Source of the DNA: Candidatus Altimarinota bacterium | GTDB lineage: Bacteria; Patescibacteriota; Gracilibacteria; UBA4473 | Assembly (NCBI GenBank): GCA_027028725.1 | Contig: JALVIB010000006.1 | Coordinates: 1 to 32,418, forward strand | Length of the DNA stretch: 32,418 nt | Direction: 5' to 3' | In this document: piece after piece, positions 4,776 to 31,990 of the stretch | Position numbering within the stretch: position 1 is the stretch's first letter | Layout: every line of letters begins with the position of its first letter | Translations under genes and position numbers: made by a program | The notes under the pieces: generated by a model | What the model was told of the DNA's origin: nothing | Database searches by the model: none | Seen by the model: the letters and a program-made list of their open reading frames with translations, nothing else

Positions 4776-5702
4776 ATGAACAAATTTTTTCGCGGGATTT
4801 TCATTGTTATGGTTCTATTAGGGGGAGCTTATTTTACGAGCGTTCAGGCACAGGTTGAAGTTCCAAAGACCTCTGAAATTTTTGATGCAACTAGTGATTC
4901 TTACTTATTAAAAAATAATCATACGCTCAAAGATTATACAGACAACGGAACAGCTTCTGGAGAGATTCAGTTTCGAGAAGCAGTATTAAAATTAACCGGT
5001 TTTCTAAAAAAATTAATGATCCCAATTGCCGTTATCTTATTAGTTTACGCGGGAATTGAACTATATTTAACTCACGGTAGCGAAGATAAATACAAACAAG
5101 CCATTAACCAAATCGCAGGAATTGGAACAGGTTTTTTATTAATGATGGTGACAGTCCATTTAGTTGACTGGGTTTTCTTTGGGAAATCGGGAGAAATTTT
5201 CCGCGAAGGAACCGATGTTTCAGAATTCGCGAGAAAAGGAATGTTAGAGATTTATGGACTTTTTGATTATTTAACGATGTTCGCGGTAGTTTTAGCGGTT
5301 GCTTTTATTGTCTGGAACGCGATTACTTTGATTATTGCTGGTGGAGAAGACGAATCACAAATTTCGGAAATGAAAAAACGAATTATCTATGGAGTAATTG
5401 GATTAATTATTCTAATCTCTGCCAAACCAATGATCAACACAATTACTGGCGGAGACGGGCAACTCGTGATTCCAAGTGTTTTTGGCGGAATTTCTCTAGT
5501 AGCCCGCTGGATTAATTTTATTCTGGGATTAATCGCAATTTTCGCGGTAATTGCCCTTATTTATGCAGGAATTCGCTTGGTGGCACATTTTGGAGATGAA
5601 GATGCTACAGCTCAGGCGAAAAAAATCATTATGGGAGCAGTTATTGGGTTGATAATAACTTTCTCAGCTTGGACAATTGTTCATTACTTTATTGCGCCAT
5701 AA
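4776..5702 (+). CDS. Exported protein with repeated VirB2/TrbC-like transmembrane hairpins (paralog of upstream gene)
   Basis: Signal peptide MNKFFRGIFIVMVLLGGAYFTSVQAQ. Modules LYLTHGSEDKYKQAINQIAGIG..., LIIAGGEDESQISEMKKRIIYGVIGLIILISAKP, RLVAHFGDEDATAQAKKIIMGAVIGLIITFSAWTIV. Confidence 0.75.
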   Translation: MNKFFRGIFIVMVLLGGAYFTSVQAQVEVPKTSEIFDATSDSYLLKNNHTLKDYTDNGTASGEIQFREAVLKLTGFLKKLMIPIAVILLVYAGIELYLTHGSEDKYKQAINQIAGIGTGFLLMMVTVHLVDWVFFGKSGEIFREGTDVSEFARKGMLEIYGLFDYLTMFAVVLAVAFIVWNAITLIIAGGEDESQISEMKKRIIYGVIGLIILISAKPMINTITGGDGQLVIPSVFGGISLVARWINFILGLIAIFAVIALIYAGIRLVAHFGDEDATAQAKKIIMGAVIGLIITFSAWTIVHYFIAP

Positions 5703-5745
5703 AATCCCGCGAAATTTCTTAATTTTCTTCCGCTCTACTTGTAAA

Positions 5746-6681
5746 CTAACTAAACAAATCAGGTTTTCCGCGTAAAATATCCGCTATCGGCATTATTTTT
5801 TTGCCGGGAATTTGCGCTTGTGAAATATAAATTTTTGAATTTTTAGCACATTTTAACTCAAATGATTTATCGCCAAAATCCCGTTTCTCGGCTTCGCTCG
5901 AAATAAACTTTATTTCCCCTAATTTCACTTTCCCATATTTTGTACTGATAAAAATTCCTGGCCAAACATCAAAAGCCAAAAATTTTCGCCAAATTTCTTC
6001 GGCCGTTTCTTTTTCTGGAAAAATTTCCCCGTCTTTTTTTTCAAATTTTCCGCAAAAAGTCGCGAGATTTTCGTCTTGCGGAAGTTTTTGCAAGTTTTTT
6101 GTAAAAAGTTTTTCTAGAAATTCCGGAAATTCTTCAGCAGTTTTTTCCGCGAAAAAATTCCATAATTCGGAAGTTTTTTTGTTTTCAATGTTCCAGCTTT
6201 TTTGCCACAAAATATCTCCTGCATCCAATTCTTTAACCATCTGCTGAAAGGTGATTCCGCTCTCTTTTTCACCAGCTAAAATAGCGGATTGCACAGGGGA
6301 AGCTCCGCGAAATTTTGGTAAAAGTGAAAAATGAACATTAATTGTCCCAAATTTGGGAATATCTAAAATTTTCGCGGGAAAAATCACACCAAAAGCGATA
6401 ACAATCGCCAAATCAAAACTCAGTTTTTCATAAATTTCGCGAACTTCTTTTTTGTTGTTCACTTCGTAAACCTTTAAGCCCAAATTTTTCGCGGATTTTT
6501 TAACCGGACAAGCAGTTAAAACTCTTTTCCGTCCAACTTTTTTATCACTTGGACAACCTACACCAACAATCTCAATATTTGAATTTTTCGCTTGTCCTGA
6601 ATTTGCTTGAAGGGCGAGTTTTTCCAATGCCGGCACAGCAATTTCCGGAGTTCCAAAAAAGAAAATTCGTTTTTTCATCAC
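5746..6681 (-). CDS. fmt: Methionyl-tRNA formyltransferase
   Basis: RIFFFGTPEIAVPALEKL, INVHFSLLPKFRGASPVQSAILAGEKESGITFQQMVKELDAGDIL: Fmt signature. Confidence 0.93.
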   Translation of the reverse strand: MMKKRIFFFGTPEIAVPALEKLALQANSGQAKNSNIEIVGVGCPSDKKVGRKRVLTACPVKKSAKNLGLKVYEVNNKKEVREIYEKLSFDLAIVIAFGVIFPAKILDIPKFGTINVHFSLLPKFRGASPVQSAILAGEKESGITFQQMVKELDAGDILWQKSWNIENKKTSELWNFFAEKTAEEFPEFLEKLFTKNLQKLPQDENLATFCGKFEKKDGEIFPEKETAEEIWRKFLAFDVWPGIFISTKYGKVKLGEIKFISSEAEKRDFGDKSFELKCAKNSKIYISQAQIPGKKIMPIADILRGKPDLFS

Positions 6682-11762: not shown

Positions 11763-12773
11763 ATGTCTAAATCAAATTTTGAAAACATAGGAAATCCTCA
11801 AAGCGTTGAGGATTTTTTAAATTTCGCGGGATTTTTGCTGAAAGAGTTTAAAAATCCCACTCTGGAAGCAGAATTACTTTTATCCTTAGCGTTAGAAAAA
11901 GATCGCGTTTGGCTAAAAACTCATCATGATTACCTTCTAACAGCTGACGAAGCACGAAAATCCCGCGAATTTTTGGAACGCCGCAAAAACCACGAGCCGT
12001 TGGCTTATATCCGTGGTTGGAAAATGTGGTGCGACATGAAAATCAAAGTTTCGCCGGATGTTCTTATTCCGCGCGATGAAACGGAAATTTTGGCGAATTA
12101 TATTTTAGGCAACAAGTCCGAACTTACCCAAGTCCGGACTTGCCCAAGTCCGGACTTAAATTTTTCGCGGGATTTTGAGCCAAAAACTATTTTGGATATT
12201 GGGACGGGAAGTGGTTGTTTGGCTATTTTTTGCGCGAAAAATTTCCCGCAGGCAGAAGTGACCGCAATTGATATTTCCCCCAAAGCTCTACAAATCGCCA
12301 AAGAAAACGCCCAAACTCATAAAGTGGAAATCAATTTTATTGAGTCTGATTTGTTAGAAAATATTCATATTTCTCCCCTCTTTAGACAAAGAGGGGAATT
12401 AAAGGGGTGTTTGAATAAAGATCAAACGCCCCCTAGCCCCCGCTTAATCTTAAGCGGGGGGACAAGCAGGGACCCACAAAATTTCGACATAATCATCGCC
12501 AACCTCCCATATGTTCCGGACGACATTGAAGTCACTGAAGATGTCAGAAAAGAACCGCATAACGCGATTTTCGCAGGAGAAGACGGTTTGGATTTAATTC
12601 GCCGATTGGCAGAGGAATTAAAATCCCGCGAAATTTCGTTTCATGAACTTTGGTTAGAGTTTTGGACTGCTCAAGAGAAAGAAATTAAGAAAATTTTTGC
12701 GGGATTTTCTGTTGAGTTCTTGCCTGATTTAAGTGGAGATACTTATTTCGCGAAGATTACTCTAGAAAAGTAA
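11763..12773 (+). CDS. prmC: Peptide chain release factor N(5)-glutamine methyltransferase
   Basis: AEARKSREFLERRKNHEPLAYIRGWKMWCDMKIKVSPDVLIPRDETEIL...ILDIGTGSGCLAIFCAKNFP...FDIIIANLPYVP; interrupted by two in-frame repeat insertions. Confidence 0.93.
   Translation: MSKSNFENIGNPQSVEDFLNFAGFLLKEFKNPTLEAELLLSLALEKDRVWLKTHHDYLLTADEARKSREFLERRKNHEPLAYIRGWKMWCDMKIKVSPDVLIPRDETEILANYILGNKSELTQVRTCPSPDLNFSRDFEPKTILDIGTGSGCLAIFCAKNFPQAEVTAIDISPKALQIAKENAQTHKVEINFIESDLLENIHISPLFRQRGELKGCLNKDQTPPSPRLILSGGTSRDPQNFDIIIANLPYVPDDIEVTEDVRKEPHNAIFAGEDGLDLIRRLAEELKSREISFHELWLEFWTAQEKEIKKIFAGFSVEFLPDLSGDTYFAKITLEK
11792..11818 (+). terminator. Intrinsic-terminator-like hairpin (AAATCCTCAA-AGCG-TTGAGGATTT + T run) within 5' part of prmC ORF
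   Basis: 10-bp perfect stem, 4-nt loop, followed by Ts; 44 nt downstream of the rpsU stop. Confidence 0.5.
12114..12176 (+). repeat. AAGTCCGGACTT-palindrome array plus CGCG motif inserted in prmC
   Basis: aagtccgaacttacccaagtccggacttgcccaagtccggacttaaatttttcgcgggatttt; related to repeats at 21119 and 31309. Confidence 0.85.
12370..12476 (+). repeat. Two C/G-rich hairpin repeats inserted in frame in prmC
   Basis: ctcccctctttagacaaagaggggaattaaaggggtg ... cgccccctagcccccgcttaatcttaagcggggggacaag; the same style as intergenic CCCCC/GGGGG repeats elsewhere in the window. Confidence 0.8.
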
Positions 12774-12789
12774 AAATTTCGCGGGATTT
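12774..12789. repeat. CGCG motif forming the entire spacer between convergent stop codons
   Basis: TAA(12771-12773) aaatttcgcgggattt TTA(12790-12792). Confidence 0.9.
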
Positions 12790-14184
12790 TTATATTTCCT
12801 CCTTCTTTTGCGCAGACCAAATTCCCCAGCCCAACAAACCAAAACAAACCAAAAGGAAAACGGGGAATTTCCAAGAAAAATCTTGAACTTCGTCCGCTCC
12901 GGATTTTACCAGAGTAGCGTTTTCGGGGATGTATGGCGGTTCAGATTCTTCGGTTTCTTGATTTTCAAAGCTGTTAGCTTGAGCAGTTTCCGCCAAGGAA
13001 ATTCCCGCGAAAAAATCATCAACTTCTTCTTTTAGCGTTAAGTACTGCGTTTCGGTCTCTTTAGCTTCTTTTTGAACTTTGTACAAATTTGTCTGTAAAT
13101 CCAAGAAAGTTTTTTCCAAATTAGCTTTTTCGTTTTCGTCTTGCGCCCGAGAAATTGCCAACGAAACATTATTTAATTCAGCATTAAGCGTATCTATTTT
13201 TTGCTTTTTGATTGAGGCGTCTTTCAATAATTGCACCAAATCATTATATTTTTTCTCCATTTCGGGGTTCGCCTTTAATTTCGCGGGATTTTCTCTGACT
13301 TTTTTTTCTAACTCTTTTAAAATATCCAACTCGGTTTGAGCTTGAACGCTCGGAATTTCCTCTTCACTAGTTGCTTCAATTAGCGGAGGTTCGCCAGACG
13401 AGTGAAATCTCGCGAAATTTTCGTCTTCGAAATTATTTATCGCAAATTCACCATCTCCTTCCACAGAAAAATCTGCCGTTGAACCAATCTCCCCACTTGC
13501 TGGATTTCCTTCGATTTCATCAGCATATGGTCCAGTATAAGGGCGTTTCGGATAAACTTCATACTCATCAGCAAAATGTTCTGGTTCAGGATCTTCGTCA
13601 AAAATTGTGTAGATTCCCGTTCGACGCAAAACAGAAGTTAAAACCCGCGAATTTTCACCAGATTCCGCTACATTCCCCCCAATTTTTCGCCATCCGTCTT
13701 CTTCGCCTTGCCATTCCCAAAGGTTCGGCAGTTTCACATTTTCATCTTCAATTAGATAAACCAACTTTACCCAAGCTGATTTCTTTAATCCATCAGGATT
13801 GAGCAATTGCTCGCGAAATAAGTTTTTCCGTGTGCGTTTATCAAATTTGTCAATAAACAAAATATCTGCCCCAGAATTTGAAACCATTTCAAAAGTAATC
13901 AATTCGCGCATTAAGCCACGCGGGTTTTTGACATCTTCTAATTCAATTTTGTGCGGAGGCAAAATTTCTCCCGTAAAATTTACTTGTGCTTCAGCATCAA
14001 CAAACTTTGTGTCTTTGGAAAACTCAATAAAAACGCCACCTTCATCACTCGCCAACAAAGTATTTTCCGCGAGATTTCCATCAACCACCTCGACAAAACT
14101 AGCCGGCATTAACGGCTGATATTCCGCGAAAACTAGCGGAAAGAAAGCTGTTATAACGGCAAAAGCGGTTAAAAATTTTTTCAC
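12790..14184 (-). CDS. Exported/membrane-anchored coiled-coil protein, 464 aa
   Basis: Signal peptide MKKFLTAFAVITAFFPLVFAE, long coiled coil, C-terminal TM FPVFLLVCFGLLGWGIW. Confidence 0.7.
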   Translation of the reverse strand: MKKFLTAFAVITAFFPLVFAEYQPLMPASFVEVVDGNLAENTLLASDEGGVFIEFSKDTKFVDAEAQVNFTGEILPPHKIELEDVKNPRGLMRELITFEMVSNSGADILFIDKFDKRTRKNLFREQLLNPDGLKKSAWVKLVYLIEDENVKLPNLWEWQGEEDGWRKIGGNVAESGENSRVLTSVLRRTGIYTIFDEDPEPEHFADEYEVYPKRPYTGPYADEIEGNPASGEIGSTADFSVEGDGEFAINNFEDENFARFHSSGEPPLIEATSEEEIPSVQAQTELDILKELEKKVRENPAKLKANPEMEKKYNDLVQLLKDASIKKQKIDTLNAELNNVSLAISRAQDENEKANLEKTFLDLQTNLYKVQKEAKETETQYLTLKEEVDDFFAGISLAETAQANSFENQETEESEPPYIPENATLVKSGADEVQDFSWKFPVFLLVCFGLLGWGIWSAQKKEEI

Positions 14185-14227
14185 AATGGTATTTTGGCCT
14201 AATTTCGCGGGATTTTCAAATAAAAAA

Positions 14228-14290
14228 AATTAAGTCAGGACTTAGACAACTTTTTGTAAAATATAAAGTCTGGACTTGTTTTTTTCTAAA
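14228..14290 (-). repeat. Degenerate copy of the 88-bp AAGTCCGGACTT repeat
   Basis: aattaagtcaggacttagacaactttttgtaaaatataaagtctggacttgtttttttcta resembles the reverse complement of 21119-21206. Confidence 0.6.
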
Positions 14291-14360
14291 ATCTCGTGAA
14301 AATTTCGCATTCTTTTTCAAACAAGAGTAAAATTCCCGCGAAATTTTAATTTTTTCAGAA

Positions 14361-15623
14361 ATGACTACTATCAAATCCGTTTTCGCCCGCGAAATTTTAG
14401 ATTCTCGGGGAAACCCAACCGTCGAAGTAGAGATGTCCGACGGAACTCATACTGTTTTGGCAAAAGTTCCTTCCGGAGCTTCCACCGGAATTCACGAAGC
14501 ACTGGAACTTCGCGATGGCGATAAATCGCGTTACGGCGGGAAAGGTGTTTTGAAAGCGGTGGCGAATGTAAACGAAATTATCGCGGAAAAAGTGGTGGGC
14601 TTGGATTCGGAAAATCAAACAGAAATTGACCAATTAATGTTGGATTTGGACGGAACCAAAAACAAAGGAAAACTCGGAGCAAACGCCATTTTGGGAGTTT
14701 CACTGGCGATTGCGCGACTTTCGGCAAAATCTCGCGGGATTCCGCTTTACGAATATTTGAACGAAATTTTTTCGGAAATCCACGGCGAAAAAGTTCAGAT
14801 GACTTTACCGCGACCGATGATGAATGTGGTGAATGGTGGAAAACACGCGGATTCTGGATTGGCGATTCAGGAGTTTATGATTTTTCCAAAACTCGCGACT
14901 TTCCGCGAAAATTTGCGCGCCGGAGCGGAAACTTTTCATACTTTGAAAAAAATTCTCGCGAAAAAAGGATTTGCCACTTCGGTCGGTGATGAAGGAGGAT
15001 TTGCCCCGCGATTGCCAAAAGTTGCGGACGCCTTGGATACCATTATGGAAGCTATTTCCGTAGCTGGTTATGAAGGAAAAATCGAATTAGCCAGCGATCC
15101 AGCAGCTTCTGAATTTTACGGACCGGAAAATGGTGCGGAAGAAGGAAAATACTTGATTGATGGGAAAAATTTAACTAGCGAGGAATTAGTAGATTTTTAC
15201 GGCGAAATTTTCGCGAAATATCCGTTAGTTTCGCTTGAAGACAGTCACGCCGAAGATGATTTCGCGGGATTTATTGCGATGCAGAAAAAATTTGGCGACA
15301 AATACCAATTAGTCGGAGACGACCTTTTTGTAACAAATAAAGAACGCTTACAGCTGGGAATTGAGGAAAAACAAGCCAACGCGATTTTGATTAAAGTGAA
15401 CCAAATCGGGACTTTGACTGAAACTTTCGAAACGATTTCACTCGCCAAAAATAACAATTTCGCGACCGTTATTTCGCATCGTTCCGGAGAAACTTCCGAC
15501 GATTTTATCGCGGATTTGGCGGTTGGAGCCGGATTAGGACAAATTAAAACCGGTTCGCTTTCACGGTCTGAAAGAATTTGTAAATACAATCAGCTTTTAC
15601 GAATTGAGGAAAAGTTAGGATAA
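14361..15623 (+). CDS. eno: Enolase
   Basis: [18 protein letters not shown]...[18 protein letters not shown]...[17 protein letters not shown]...[17 protein letters not shown]. Confidence 0.98.
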
Positions 15624-15776
15624 AATCCCTTTCTAATTCCCCCGCAAGGCGGGGGGGCTCAGTCTTCGCTAAAGCTATGACCGACAAGTAGGGGGGTTGT
15701 TTAAAACCCCGCGAAATTTTTGACTTTTCTAAAATTTTATGTATAATCAAAAGGTATTTACTAATCAAATTAAAAA

Positions 15777-16016
15777 ATGGTAGGAATAAATAAAAACAAG
15801 AGACATACGGAGTTCGCTGAAAAAATGATGGAAATTTCTCAAACACCAAAATATTTAAAGGCTACTCAGGAAGAACGAGGTATAATTGTAGAAAAAATTA
15901 GAAATACGGTAAATCAAAAGTGGGCAGATCATGTCCAAGGAAGTCGTTTTGATGATCCGCCAAAATCACCTAAACAAGAAGACGGTTTCAAATTCGAAGA
16001 TGGACACCGACTATAA
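15777..16016 (+). CDS. Hypothetical protein, 79 aa
   Basis: Short ORF, plausible start, ends just before the motif-spacer shared with dnaG. Confidence 0.45.
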   Translation: MVGINKNKRHTEFAEKMMEISQTPKYLKATQEERGIIVEKIRNTVNQKWADHVQGSRFDDPPKSPKQEDGFKFEDGHRL

Positions 16017-16037
16017 GGCTTAAAATCCCGCGAAATT

Positions 16038-17711
16038 TTACTTTTGTAAAGAATAAAATCTCTCCAGTTCCTTTTGAGCGCGAGAGATTTTTTCTTTTTT
16101 GTTTTTAAGTTGTGTAAAGAATTTTTTGAACTCTTTTTTTTGGTTTTCCGCCGAAAACATTTCCCCATACAGATTCTCTTGTTGCATTGTCCAAGCATTG
16201 AAAAGAGTTTTTTCTTCTAAATCCATTTCTGCATCGGTAAAAAATTTTCGTAAAATTTCGCGGGATTTTTCTTCGGTAAAATATTTCAAAAACGCCTCAA
16301 CTTTATTCCCGACAAGTTTCCGCGAAATTTCCGGAAAAGCACCGATAAAGCCCGCAAAACATTCTTCGCGAGACATTTTCTTCTTTTTTTCGCGGGATTT
16401 TCGGATTCGTTCCGGTTTTCGGTTTTTCTTTAAATACCGCTTAAATTCGTCTTCAATAATTTGTCGCGAGCGGTTTAATTTCCGCGAAATTTTACTGATA
16501 AAATCATCAACTTCAATCGGACGATTCACTAGTTTCAAAAAGAAAAAGAAGGTGTCCAGAAACTTCTTTTCCCCTTCAATGCCGTTTTGCAAATTTTTCG
16601 CGGCGAATTTTTCAAACAAGAAATCAAGTGCTTTCTGCGCATTTTTAACCGCATTTTTCGCGAGATTTTCATCTTTTTGCAACATTTCGTCTAAATCTTT
16701 TCCGCCGGAAATTTCCACAATTTTGGGATTCAACTCCATTTTTAAACACATCTCTACAGCCCGCAAAGTCGCTTTTTTCCCCGCGAGATCGGCATCAAAC
16801 GCCAGCACAACATTTTTCGTCATTCGGCGAAGAGTTCGCAAATGGTCTTCCGTCAGCGAAGTTCCGCAAGTCGCCACACAGTTGGTCATGCCCGCCGAAT
16901 GCATTGAAATCACATCAAAATTCCCTTCAACCAAAATTACCGCATTTTTTTCGCGGATTTTTTTCTTCGCTCGATGCAGACCAAAAAGTGTGGAACTTTT
17001 GTGATAAACGGGATTTTCAGGGGAATTCACATATTTCGCGACTTTTTTCTCACCACTCAAATCTCGTCCCGTGAACGCCACAATTTCCCCGTTTTTCGCT
17101 TCAAAAATAGGAATCATCAATCGTTTGCGAAAGCGATCCATCATCGTTTTGTTCCCAAAATCGCGCTCAAACGCCACGCCAGATTCCGCAATTTTTTCTG
17201 GCGAAAATCCTTTATTCAACAAATGTTTCGTCAGACCATCAATTTGATCTCCGCCATACCCCAGTTGCCATTCGTCAATAGTTTTCGCGGAAATCCCGCG
17301 ATTTTTTAGATAATCTTGGGCGGACTGATTTTTTTTCAATTGCTCGGCAAAAAACAGTGCCGCCTGTCGGTGCAAATCATAGATATTCGCCTTTTTTTCG
17401 CGGGAAATTTTCTTTTCGCCAAGTTTTTTCGGCACTTCCATGCCCGCCATATCGGCTAAATGTTCAACCGCTTCGGGAAAGGAAAAGTTTTCAATTTTCT
17501 CCAAAAACGAAATGACATCACCTCCTTCCGAAGTTCCAAAATCGTACCAAAACTGCTTATCCGGACTAACACAAAAACTCGGCGTGCGCTCGTTCCGGAA
17601 AGGCGATCGGCACATATAATTTTTCCCCGATTTCTTTAATTCCGCGTATTTACGCACAACTTCCACAATATCAATGCGGTTTTTTAAGTCTTCCAAAAAT
17701 CTATCGTCCAT
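16038..17711 (-). CDS. dnaG: DNA primase
   Basis: SPFRNERTPSFCVSPDKQFWYDFGTSEGGDVISFLEKIENFSFPEAVEHLADMAG...LMIPIFEAKNGEIVAFTGRDL...VILVEGNFDVISMHSAGMTNCVATCGTSLTEDHLRTLRR...LAFDADLAGKKATLRAVE. Confidence 0.96.
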   Translation of the reverse strand: MDDRFLEDLKNRIDIVEVVRKYAELKKSGKNYMCRSPFRNERTPSFCVSPDKQFWYDFGTSEGGDVISFLEKIENFSFPEAVEHLADMAGMEVPKKLGEKKISREKKANIYDLHRQAALFFAEQLKKNQSAQDYLKNRGISAKTIDEWQLGYGGDQIDGLTKHLLNKGFSPEKIAESGVAFERDFGNKTMMDRFRKRLMIPIFEAKNGEIVAFTGRDLSGEKKVAKYVNSPENPVYHKSSTLFGLHRAKKKIREKNAVILVEGNFDVISMHSAGMTNCVATCGTSLTEDHLRTLRRMTKNVVLAFDADLAGKKATLRAVEMCLKMELNPKIVEISGGKDLDEMLQKDENLAKNAVKNAQKALDFLFEKFAAKNLQNGIEGEKKFLDTFFFFLKLVNRPIEVDDFISKISRKLNRSRQIIEDEFKRYLKKNRKPERIRKSREKKKKMSREECFAGFIGAFPEISRKLVGNKVEAFLKYFTEEKSREILRKFFTDAEMDLEEKTLFNAWTMQQENLYGEMFSAENQKKEFKKFFTQLKNKKEKISRAQKELERFYSLQK

Positions 17712-17884
17712 TTTGCAATCAGTTTAGTAATTAAAAGTTAACAATTAACAATTATTTGTCTAGGAAACTCTGATAAATAACGCAAAACAGAAAATTTTAA
17801 GATTTTTGAGCATACAAAAATTTCGCGGGATTTTATGTGTTTTCCCCCTGACAAGGGGGCTAGGGGGTTTGCATTATAAAAAAT

Positions 17885-17912
17885 TTGACAAGCAATTAAA
17901 AATTTCTAATAT
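17885..17912 (+). promoter_or_regulatory. rpmA promoter: TTGACA-N16-TAATAT then CGCGCCG
   Basis: TTGACA 17885-17890, TAATAT 17907-17912, start codon 17936. Confidence 0.75.
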
Positions 17913-17935
17913 CGCGCCGTAATTATTCAAAACAA

Positions 17936-18220
17936 ATGGCACACAAGAAAGCTGGTGGTAGTTCCAAAAACGGTCGAGATTCCAATGCCAAGCGCCGTGG
18001 CGTGAAGCGATTTGGAGGGCAGTCTGTCCACGCTGGGGAAGTTCTAATTCGTCAGAAAGGGACTAAATTCCGTCCAGGATTAAATGTTGGAATGGGAAAA
18101 GACTTTACTTTATATGCAGAAAAGGAAGGAGTTGTGACTTTTTCCAAGAAAGCTGTTGTTCGTTTTGACGGACGCCGCTACGAAAAAGTTTTTGTAAACA
18201 TCGCTGAATTAGCGAAATAA
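17936..18220 (+). CDS. rpmA: 50S ribosomal protein L27
   Basis: [61 protein letters not shown]. Confidence 0.97.
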
Positions 18221-18243
18221 GAAACCTTTGATTAAGAAAAATT

Positions 18244-18271
18244 AAAATCCCGCGAAATTTCTCGGGATTTT
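18244..18271 (+). terminator. Near-perfect inverted pair of CGCG motifs downstream of rpmA
   Basis: AAAATCCCGCGAAA|TTTCTCGGGATTTT (one mismatch) followed by TTT; 23 nt after the rpmA stop. Confidence 0.7.
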
Positions 18272-18471
18272 TTTGTATTTAAATGTCCTGTGGACTTCTC
18301 CCTTCTTTAAAGGGGGATTGGGGGGGGATTTCAAAAAAAAGAGGGACACAAAAGTCTAGATTCCTGCCTCCGCAGGAATGAGGGCGACGGGATAATTTCG
18401 CGGGATTTTAAAAGTTTGACTTTTTTGTTTTTATTTGTTAAAAATATTTTGATTATTTAAATTTATAGAAA

Positions 18472-18876
18472 ATGGGATTAACAAAAGAGCAGATATTGAT
18501 TGATGTACAAAATGACGATACTGTAAAATCAGAAATCGAATACGCAATTAAAAATTGGAACAATCTAAGTGAACAAAATGAAAGTTCTAATGAAAAAATA
18601 AAAGAAATCCTATTGGATTTTGTAGGTAGAGTTGCACAAAAAACCCTAGATTTTATAGAAATACCTATTAAAGATAGAATGGATAGAAAGGAAAATTATA
18701 AATTTTCTACAAATATAAAATTAACAATAAATGCCATAAAAAATCCTATACAAAGAATAGTCCCTGATTTGTTTGGTAATGAGAAAGTAGTTGAAATTAG
18801 TTTAGAGAAACTAGCTGATGTGACAGCTGTTTTTGTAATGTCAAAAGAAGAGTTTCTAATTCCCGCGAAATTATAA
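18472..18876 (+). CDS. Hypothetical protein, 134 aa
   Basis: AT-rich ORF; last residues IPAKL encoded by a CGCG motif (attcccgcgaaattataa). Confidence 0.55.
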   Translation: MGLTKEQILIDVQNDDTVKSEIEYAIKNWNNLSEQNESSNEKIKEILLDFVGRVAQKTLDFIEIPIKDRMDRKENYKFSTNIKLTINAIKNPIQRIVPDLFGNEKVVEISLEKLADVTAVFVMSKEEFLIPAKL

Positions 18877-18878
18877 AT

Positions 18879-18908
18879 AAGTCCCCTGATAAGGGGATTT
18901 AGGGGTTA
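18879..18908. repeat. CCCCT/GGGG hairpin repeat abutting the folD stop codon
   Basis: aagtcccctgataaggggatttaggggtta; nearly identical to 23389-23418 at the metK stop. Confidence 0.85.
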
Positions 18909-19766
18909 TTTCTCCGCCGCTTCGATAGTATTTTCAATTAAACTGACAACAGTCATTGGTCCAACTCCGCCGGGGACGGGGGAAATTTTCGCGACAACAT
19001 CTTTCGCTGATTCAAAATCCACATCTCCACATAATCGCCAGCCTTTTTCGCGGGATTTGTCTTCCTTGCGGTGAATTCCGACATCAATCACGACACAACC
19101 TTTTGGTAAATCTGCCCCCTTAATCATTTCCGGACGACCGACCGCAACAATGACAATATCGGCATTTTTCAAATGTTCCGCGAGATTTTTGGTTCGTGAA
19201 TGACAAGTTGTCACGGTGGCGTTTTTGTTCAAAGCCAAAGCCGAAACTGGTTTTCCCACGATATTTGACCGACCGATAACCGTCACATTTTTGCCTTCCA
19301 GCGTTTCGCCGCTTTCCTCAATCATCCGAATAATCCCTTTCGGCGTGCAGCATTGCAAACAAGGCTCGCCAAGGAAGAGTTTTCCGATGTTTTCCGCGGT
19401 AAATCCATCGACATCTTTTTGGGGATCAATTTTCGCGAGAATTTTTTCCACTGAAATCCCTTTCGGCAAAGGTAATTGCACAATTACTCCGTGGATTGTG
19501 TCATCGTTGTTGATTTTCTCAATTTCCGCCAAAATTTCGTCTTCTGTAATGGTGTCAGGGAATCGCCAAGTTTCCGCGAGAATCCCCGCTTTTGCCGCGA
19601 ATTTTTCTTTTTGTCGCACATAACTTGCCGAAGCGGGATGATCTCCGACCAAAATCACCACTAATTTAGGGAAAATTTCGCGGGATTTTAGTTTTTCCAC
19701 ACGCGGAATTAAGTCGGTTTCAATGATTTTTTGAGCAATATCGCGACCGGAGATTATTTCTGCCAT
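18906..19766 (-). CDS. folD: Bifunctional methylenetetrahydrofolate dehydrogenase/methenyltetrahydrofolate cyclohydrolase
   Basis: VGDHPASASYVRQKEKFAAKAGI...VQLPLPKGI...IDPQKDVDGFTAENIGKLFLG...TPKGIIRMIEESG...VIGRSNIVGKPVSALALNKNATVTTCHSRTKNL...PVPGGVGPMTV. Confidence 0.97.
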   Translation of the reverse strand: MAEIISGRDIAQKIIETDLIPRVEKLKSREIFPKLVVILVGDHPASASYVRQKEKFAAKAGILAETWRFPDTITEDEILAEIEKINNDDTIHGVIVQLPLPKGISVEKILAKIDPQKDVDGFTAENIGKLFLGEPCLQCCTPKGIIRMIEESGETLEGKNVTVIGRSNIVGKPVSALALNKNATVTTCHSRTKNLAEHLKNADIVIVAVGRPEMIKGADLPKGCVVIDVGIHRKEDKSREKGWRLCGDVDFESAKDVVAKISPVPGGVGPMTVVSLIENTIEAAEK

Positions 19767-21231: not shown

Positions 21232-21927
21232 ATGAAAGATTTATTGAAAAAATTAGGTATAGAAATCACTTCTGAGGAGGAAGAACAGGTTTTTATTGAA
21301 GCTTTTACGCATCGTTCGGCGGTGAATGAAAAAACAAAATACAATGTTCACAACGAGCGATTAGAGTTTTTGGGCGACGCGGTTTTGGAAATGATTACGA
21401 CCGAGTTTCTTTATTATAAATTCCGCGAAAAAAAGGAGGGGGAAATGACGAATTTGCGCGCGGCGCTTGTTTGCGGGGAACATTTAGCGGAAGTCGCGCG
21501 AAAATTAGGACTGGGAGAGTTTTTGATTATGTCTCACGGAGAAGCGAAATCGGGAGGCGCGAAAAAATCGTATTTGCTGGCAAATTTGGTGGAAGCGATC
21601 ATTGGAGCAATTTATGTTAATTACGGAATCAAAAAAGCCCGCGAATTTATCACCAAATACATTTTGTGCGATCTCGAAGAGATTATGGAATCGGCTAAAC
21701 ATATCGATGCCAAGTCCGAGTTTCAGGAAATTTCGCAGGGAGAATTAAGCATTACTCCGCATTATGAAGTTTTATCAGAAACCGGGAAAGATCACGAAAA
21801 AAGTTTTGAAGTCGCCGCCTTCATTAAAGATAAAATGGTTGGGAAAGGAGTTGGTGGTTCAAAAAAAGAAGCACAAGCGGACGCCGCGCGGGACGCTTTG
21901 GCGCATCAGGATACTTGGCGGAAGTAA
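21232..21927 (+). CDS. rnc: Ribonuclease III
   Basis: FTHRSAVNEKTKYNVHNERLEFLGDAVLEMITTEFLY...C-terminal dsRBD GVGGSKKEAQADAARDAL. Confidence 0.96.
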   Translation: MKDLLKKLGIEITSEEEEQVFIEAFTHRSAVNEKTKYNVHNERLEFLGDAVLEMITTEFLYYKFREKKEGEMTNLRAALVCGEHLAEVARKLGLGEFLIMSHGEAKSGGAKKSYLLANLVEAIIGAIYVNYGIKKAREFITKYILCDLEEIMESAKHIDAKSEFQEISQGELSITPHYEVLSETGKDHEKSFEVAAFIKDKMVGKGVGGSKKEAQADAARDALAHQDTWRK

Positions 21928-22083
21928 AATTTCGCGGGAAATTTTTAGGAATTAATAGTTAAAAGTTAATAGTTAATAGTAAAAAAGGGCGATTAATAAT
22001 CGCCCATACGTTCTTCCGACCTCTAATTTTCTTCTTTTTTTCAGCAAAAATCCCGCGCTGTGCCCCGCAAGGCGGTGGAAATT

Positions 22084-23272: not shown

Positions 23273-23388
23273 AACCCTCTAACTCCCTTATCAGGGAGAA
23301 TAGACATTGTGTTTGTAAAATCCCGCGAAATTTTAAATAATTCCTTTAACTTCCCCCTTGAGAAAGGGGGATTGAGGGGGATTTTTTG

Positions 23389-23418
23389 AAAGTCCCCTGA
23401 TAAGGGGATTAGGGGTTA
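23389..23418. repeat. CCCCT/GGGG hairpin repeat abutting the metK stop codon
   Basis: aaagtcccctgataaggggattaggggtta; second copy of 18879-18908. Confidence 0.85.
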
Positions 23419-24543: not shown

Positions 24544-24626
24544 TTTAATAAGGATTAAGAAAGTGTATCCTTATCGAGTTTTTGCGGAAATCCCGCGAAA
24601 TTTTGCAGATCGTCTAGGATTTAGAC

Positions 24627-24714
24627 TTTATCTCTTTTGGTTGGAGCACCTTACTTCTGAGGAAGCGGTTGCTGATGGGTCACAGAGCCAAACCTCTCGC
24701 CATCTCTCGATAAA
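24627..24714 (-). promoter_or_regulatory. SAM-I (S-box) riboswitch aptamer upstream of metK
   Basis: Minus strand TTTATCGAGAGATGGCGAGAGGTTTGGCTCTGTGACCCATCAGCAACCGCTTCCTCAGAAGTAAGGTGCTCCAACCAAAAGAGATAAA: S-box landmarks (TATC-AGAG, TGACCC...GCAACC, AAGGTGC-CCAACC) and P1 TTTATC/GATAAA, preceding metK. Confidence 0.88.
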
Positions 24715-24848
24715 TTTACGACGAAAGTCTATTTTTTCGCGGGATTTTGTCAAAATTTCCTTTGGCTACTTCTCCTTCTAGTCCCGAGTTCTCGGGATGG
24801 CGGGGAGTGAGGTAGTTTAAAATTTCAAATTCCTCTAAAATAACCACG

Positions 24849-31243: not shown

Positions 31244-31248
31244 GATAA

Positions 31249-31278
31249 AAAAATCCCGCGAAATTTCGCGGGATTTTT
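31249..31278 (+). terminator. Perfect 30-bp palindrome made of two inverted CGCG motifs after the A2M gene
   Basis: AAAAATCCCGCGAAA|TTTCGCGGGATTTTT, 6 nt after the stop codon. Confidence 0.8.
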
Positions 31279-31308
31279 GAAAAAAGAAAAACAAGTTCGA
31301 ACTTGGCA

Positions 31309-31397
31309 TACTAGAAAAACAAGTCCGGACTTGGCACAGGAAAAAAAGCTTTTTAAGTCCGGACTTAAGTTTTTCTGCGAAAATTTCGCGGGATTTT
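31309..31397 (+). repeat. 88/89-bp dispersed repeat, copy 2
   Basis: Identical to 21119-21206 apart from one extra G. Confidence 0.95.
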
Positions 31398-31990
31398 TAC
31401 TGCAATGGATTGAAAATAAAGGCCGTTATTTTGTCTGCAAATCTTTTAAATTCCCGCGCAAAACTAACTATGTTAGGGATTAGATACTGACTAGAACGAA
31501 CTTCAATCGCGCGGAATTTTTCGCGGAAAGTAGAGCGTGTTTTGCGTCGTTGGTTTTCCAGAACTGCCGTTTTAATTTTTAATTTTTCTATCTCAAAAAT
31601 ATTATCAATTGTTTTATCACACCAAGCATTTTGCGCATTGTCTTCCTTGAAATTCTTCCCCGTATCACACTCATTGATCATAGTATGACAAGCTTTTTCC
31701 AGACAAAGTCTATGAATTCGCAGTTCCTGAATTCCTTTTTGCGTAAGCCAATTTGGATTCGAAACATTGTCCTTCATTATTTTTTGGACGATTTCTTTGT
31801 CAAAATAATTTAATTCAACTTCAAAAGTATTTTTCGCGGATAATTCCGTAAACTGGTTAGCCGAACAATTTGGATCAGCTTTAATGGCTTCAATTATCTC
31901 ATCTTCACGCGGACACTCCAGCATCTCGTTTTCCGCGAAAACTTGACCAACAAGTACGAAAGAAATCAGCAGTAAGAAAGTTTTTTTCAT
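31397..31990 (-). CDS. Exported hypothetical protein, 197 aa
   Basis: Signal peptide MKKTFLLLISFVLVGQVFAE; no family recognised. Confidence 0.65.
   Translation of the reverse strand: MKKTFLLLISFVLVGQVFAENEMLECPREDEIIEAIKADPNCSANQFTELSAKNTFEVELNYFDKEIVQKIMKDNVSNPNWLTQKGIQELRIHRLCLEKACHTMINECDTGKNFKEDNAQNAWCDKTIDNIFEIEKLKIKTAVLENQRRKTRSTFREKFRAIEVRSSQYLIPNIVSFAREFKRFADKITAFIFNPLQ

Follow-up and report, generated by a model that had tools for sequence, protein, structure and literature searches.

Genes and motif copies in the window

The window analysed here is a stretch of 32,418 nucleotides from a Candidatus Altimarinota bacterium (contig JALVIB010000006.1), in which prmC, the gene for the peptide chain release factor methyltransferase, faces an opposing gene across a spacer that consists of a single copy of a 16-mer, AAATTTCGCGGGATTT, and nothing else (Table 1). 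The first-pass annotation had described this spacer as exactly one motif held between two facing stop codons, and the sequence confirms it. Two further pairs it named were also as described: the 21-nt spacer between a small open-reading frame and dnaG consists of ggct followed by taaaatcccgcgaaatt, in which the reverse complement of the motif overlaps the dnaG stop by one base, and in the 43-nt spacer before fmt the motif begins at the stop codon of a T4SS-pilin-like gene, taking its last A. Allowing up to three mismatches, the window holds 110 motif matches against 3.2 expected. The core, TCGCGGGA, occurs in six of its seven convergent spacers, and in five of the seven a copy lies flush with at least one stop, where flush means that the copy starts between −3 and +2 from the end of the stop codon. 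Within PrmC itself, an internal stretch before NLPY (HISPLFRQRGELKGCLNKDQTPPSPRLILSGGTSRD) resembles a translated repeat element.

Table 1 Features discussed in the text; positions are those of the window, except for the island in the last row, which is numbered within its own locus
Feature	Position	Strand	Remarks
T4SS-pilin-like protein	4776..5702	+	PF18895, three stretches; ends in motif copy 5702-5717
Exact motif	5702..5717	-	Overlaps the stop of gene 4776-5702 by its last A
fmt, methionyl-tRNA formyltransferase	5746..6681	-	Convergent with 4776-5702
prmC, peptide chain release factor methyltransferase	11763..12773	+	PF17827 (1.1e-14) and methyltransferase domains; left partner of convergent pair
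Exact motif in prmC	11819..11834	+	Encodes part of NFAGF, the most frequent reading of coding copies
Exact motif in prmC coding sequence	12621..12636	-	Encodes KSREI
Exact motif, entire spacer between prmC and opposing gene	12774..12789	+	Between TAA 12771-12773 and TTA 12790-12792
464-aa protein opposing prmC	12790..14184	-	No Pfam match
Small open-reading frame, 79 aa (or start 15825)	15777..16016	+	No Pfam match; convergent with dnaG
Exact motif in spacer 16017-16037	16023..16038	-	One base in common with the dnaG stop
dnaG primase	16038..17711	-	Motif-coded residues align with relatives, no indels
Motif, two mismatches	21927..21942	+	Flush with stop of gene 21232-21927; 156-nt convergent spacer
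SAM riboswitch	24625..24716	-	RF00162, 54.9 bits
Two overlapping inverted copies	31251..31276		26-nt palindrome, then T; sole hairpin-terminator-like motif arrangement in the window
Exact motif	31381..31396	+	Flush with stop of minus-strand gene 31397-31990
Motif-free low-GC island (L189, G000:C44)	12720..18954		Adjoins nusA; XRE regulator, N6/N4 methylase, DpnII endonuclease, AAA ATPase

An iterated word restricted to one genus

The motif is iterated throughout the genome as a signal whose most visible consequence is the convergent spacers. In whole-genome word counts over 1.04 Mb, the exact 16-mer is present in 636 copies (its reversed control in 0), the 13-mer TTTCGCGGGATTT in 1,273 and the core in 2,382, or about one per 440 bp; the sample read directly covered 449 kb, under half of the genome. 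The excess over Markov expectation is graded, falling from 1692-fold for the exact 13-mer to 48-, 6- and 1.7-fold at one, two and three mismatches, a pattern which has been described for uptake sequences (PMC1939737). The logo reads A-WWW-TTT-CGCGGGA-W-TTT-T over ~18 bp, and the conserved unit, (A)AAATTTCGCGGGATTT(T), is asymmetric and 16–18 bp long. TCGCG is nearly invariant, an A is allowed at both of the following G's, and substitutions around the palindromic CGCG preserve a YYCGCGRR pattern. Other words recur in the same DNA: a second palindrome, AAGTCCGGACTT, is over-represented in the genome (for example in window spacer 31244-31396), GTCCGGAC occurs 104 times against 7.4 expected in the 449 kb (both strands), and spacers repeatedly contain hairpin elements of the CCCCTGATAAGGGG type and repeats like TTAACTATTAACT (window 18877-18905 and 23273-23415).

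None of 379 other genomes of the same phylum, nor any of 19 genomes from other genera of the same family, carries the 13-mer more than once. Word counts in seven sister genera (partial genomes, 31–558 kb each) returned no iterated word comparable to the motif, and a candidate sister-genus version in relative G001 was rejected, as the core there is only 1.6 times its expectation and its flanks are not conserved. Relative G018 has an over-represented word, AGACCGGTCT (26 copies, 0.4 expected). The matches listed in a contig scan of other genomes include chance singletons, and 33 viral contigs carried only single chance copies. In one unrelated genome, a Crocinitomicaceae MAG (DQTF01000149.1, locus L058, 72-97), the exact 16-mer forms an overlapping inverted pair, which is probably due to chance or to a terminator hairpin. 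The motif is lineage-specific and restricted to one genus, of which one genome was analysed.

Genes were called with our own simple codon-usage caller, gene starts and small genes are therefore approximate. Of 1,085 classified copies in the 449 kb, 685 (63%) lie in coding sequence and 400 in noncoding DNA, whilst by length the order is reversed, with core densities per kb in the first 263 kb of 7.3 for convergent spacers, 6.1 for tandem ones and 5.3 for divergent ones, against 1.9 for genes. Copies show no orientation bias relative to genes (211/196, first 263 kb) or to contig GC skew (497 with, 463 against), and an oriented site of the Chi or KOPS type was rejected on the latter count. In dnaG, the four core copies lie in blocks alignable with 17 relatives, and no indel occurs at the motif sites; in this single gene family the copies therefore arose by substitution rather than insertion. 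The same alignment and the coding majority were the grounds for rejecting a mobile repeat of the REP/MITE type, which would be inserted and mostly intergenic. The longest motif-free stretch in the 449 kb is a 6.2-kb island with a GC content of 0.29–0.34 and a DpnII endonuclease gene (Table 1), so that recently acquired DNA is free of the motif; long motif-free stretches also occur in large genes.

Copies avoid one another below ~100 bp. With coding/noncoding placement preserved in the null, 106 gaps were shorter than 100 bp where 272 ± 12 were expected, and 460 gaps of 100–300 bp were present where 309 were expected. On the left (AAATTT) flank, AT content rises and falls every 10.5 bp over roughly four turns (phasing power 0.0188, null maximum 0.0020); on the opposite flank phasing is weak. 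Fairly regular gaps, phased AT tracts that favour bending and the lack of strand bias would all suit a chromosome-organising site, on which an abundant DNA-bending nucleoid protein would sit every ~300–400 bp. We consider this possible but unlikely: long stretches of the genome, both within large genes and across the acquired island, have no copy, and a nucleoid site by itself predicts neither the absence of the motif from all sister genera nor its fit to stop codons.

Stop codons and convergent spacers

A genome-wide tabulation of copies relative to stop codons, as the first-pass annotation had proposed, gave a clear enrichment at gene ends in two independent samples. The first (263 kb, 221 genes) had 60 flush copies against ~4.2 per 6 nt further downstream, and permutation within spacers gave 12.6 ± 2.9 where 50 were observed. 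An independent 185 kb contained 41 flush copies against a background of ~3 per 6 nt, with 29 observed against 8.4 ± 2.2 in the same permutation. Flush copies peak at offsets −1 and 0, equally in both orientations, and 93 of 101 adjoin a TAA codon, whilst start codons showed no motif enrichment (3 vs 8.4 in the 263 kb). Proximity to the stop raises motif frequency ~2.6-fold at +1 to +9, and sharing of the A's of TAA predicts an excess of ~3-fold at −1; the 56 copies observed at −1 exceed both effects, so that the exact register is only partly explained. Pre-existing seeds after the stops of relatives were rejected as its source, with near matches only ~2-fold enriched at −1/0, as was a gene-truncating element, since genes with flush copies had C-terminal lengths relative to relatives like those of other genes (n = 36 vs 114, p = 0.16).

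Convergent spacers were compared with those of eight relatives sampled identically. Lengths of 13–30 nt are in excess here (13 of 60, against 9 of 186 in relatives, p = 0.0003), lengths of 0–12 nt are scarce (2 of 60 against 37 of 186, p = 0.002), and 12 of the 13 spacers of 13–30 nt contain one core copy. We infer that motif-only convergent spacers are a remnant of trimming around a retained motif: in a process separate from the spread of the motif, a deletion-prone genome would trim unneeded spacer DNA while loss of the motif is resisted, and erosion would halt once the motif abuts the stop codon or overlaps it in the A's of TAA, the end state being 14–16 nt between two facing stops. The alternative is a copy inserted between abutting stops; the search for orthologous convergent pairs to compare with relatives gave none that were usable. 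Convergence is not special as such, as flush copies also follow many tandem genes.

The precise registration in both orientations could also point to a gene-end element, an orientation-independent, protein-bound site that would stop or pause RNA polymerase immediately downstream of the stop codon, once it is no longer pushed by a trailing ribosome, with intragenic copies tolerated because of translation coupling. The frequency of flush copies is higher at convergent ends (29 of 62) than at tandem ends (27 of 102, both in the 263 kb), few convergent spacers are shorter than the motif, and a crude home-made scan placed hairpin terminators after 2 of 50 flush genes compared with 19 of 107 others. 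Against this, flush copies also lie between same-strand genes just 27–50 nt apart, where a promoter would hardly fit, roughly two in three genes that have 3′ space carry no flush copy, and T-tract selection is not apparent, with no T excess after flush copies relative to other noncoding copies. The initial proposal is upheld in that convergent spacers are filled by the motif and copies begin at stop codons; an implied RNA 3′-end or convergent-gene element as its general function is not supported, with most copies intragenic in both orientations and single copies folding at only −1.9 and −0.2 kcal/mol. We regard a gene-end element as the primary role of the motif as improbable, and judge it equally improbable that, besides any uptake role, a protein bound right at the stop codon halts polymerase without a hairpin, one copy serving two convergent genes.

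A possible DNA-uptake-type self-tag

Self-tags of the uptake type have been described mainly in the Pasteurellaceae and Neisseriaceae, and the cognate uptake receptor of Neisseria is a ComP-like pilin. We propose, with moderate confidence, that the motif is such a tag spread by drive, its motif-only spacers having been produced by trimming. A putative surface or pilus DNA receptor would favour motif-bearing fragments in uptake, recombination of these fragments (ComEC, DprA) would spread copies by molecular drive, and point substitutions would fix them where sequence is free, in spacers first and in tolerant codons next. Like an uptake sequence, the motif is a short word in hundreds to thousands of copies far above chance, present on both strands of coding and noncoding DNA and, in the one gene family analysed, derived by substitution. 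The competence genes ComEC and DprA are both present, and a member of the Saccharibacteria, a Patescibacterium, is naturally competent through ComEC (PMC10633639); small genome sizes throughout the phylum sample and the PF18895 pilin suggest that the present genome is patescibacterial too. ComEC is however not discriminating, because all 19 same-family relatives have it yet lack the motif. These relatives count against an uptake tag, and so do two further observations: close inverted pairs are rare (four at 12 nt in 263 kb), and the sharing of dialects among related genera, which is usual for DNA uptake sequences though not strictly defining, was not found here. Among the open-licence papers listed, none joins Patescibacteria and DNA uptake sequences.

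The motif is close in kind to the uptake signal sequence (USS) of Pasteurellaceae such as Haemophilus influenzae, which has a GC core containing GCGG between AT-rich flanks (PMC7811141), exceeds 1,000 copies, is spread over coding and noncoding sequence with no strand bias, is enriched in spacers and accumulates by substitution (PMC7811141, PMC1939737, PMC2346458). The motif differs in its unrelated lineage, in its density (a core every ~440 bp compared with ~1,000 bp for USS), in its phased AT tracts 5′ of the core as written, in its strong register with stop codons and in the rarity of close inverted pairs. It resembles the DUS of Neisseriaceae in its thousands of copies, at a density like that of kingDUS (5,918 in 2.4 Mb, PMC3630211), in its absence from recently acquired DNA and in its enrichment in tail-to-tail spacers, as reported for Neisseria meningitidis (PMC1852404). 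The sequence is different, however, and whereas Neisseriaceae have dialects, no sister genus carries one of the motif. In both USS and DUS, inverted-pair terminators are common, whilst for the motif they are rare.

HIP1 of cyanobacteria, a palindrome of 8 bp associated with methyltransferases (PMC4390886), is likewise a short word highly iterated through coding and noncoding DNA, and a word of this kind, driven by methylation or repair through biased mismatch repair, would need no role in uptake. Very high copy number, restriction to a lineage, the palindromic CGCG core and substitutions that keep YYCGCGRR are all consistent with such an origin; the motif, however, is an asymmetric logo of 16–18 bp with AT tracts phased on one side, and we think a HIP1-like word highly unlikely. 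A family of intrinsic transcription terminators can be set aside as extremely improbable: the motif reads as A-tract, GC core and T-tract in either direction, and overlapping inverted pairs such as that at 31251-31276 can fold (−19.2 kcal/mol for a pair of this type), but such pairs are rare, single copies do not form the hairpin and T-run of a terminator, and the lack of a stable single-copy hairpin, the occurrence in either orientation and the coding location of most copies together show that it is not an ordinary terminator.

If the motif is a DNA-uptake-type self-tag, a tag of similar anatomy but unrelated sequence would exist in one genus of a phylum of small genomes, by inference the Patescibacteria, which would mean that such tags arise independently, and it would give a means of telling which patescibacterial lineages trade DNA with one another. 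The way in which the motif fits against the stop codon is a clean case of a genome-wide signal shaping intergenic architecture.
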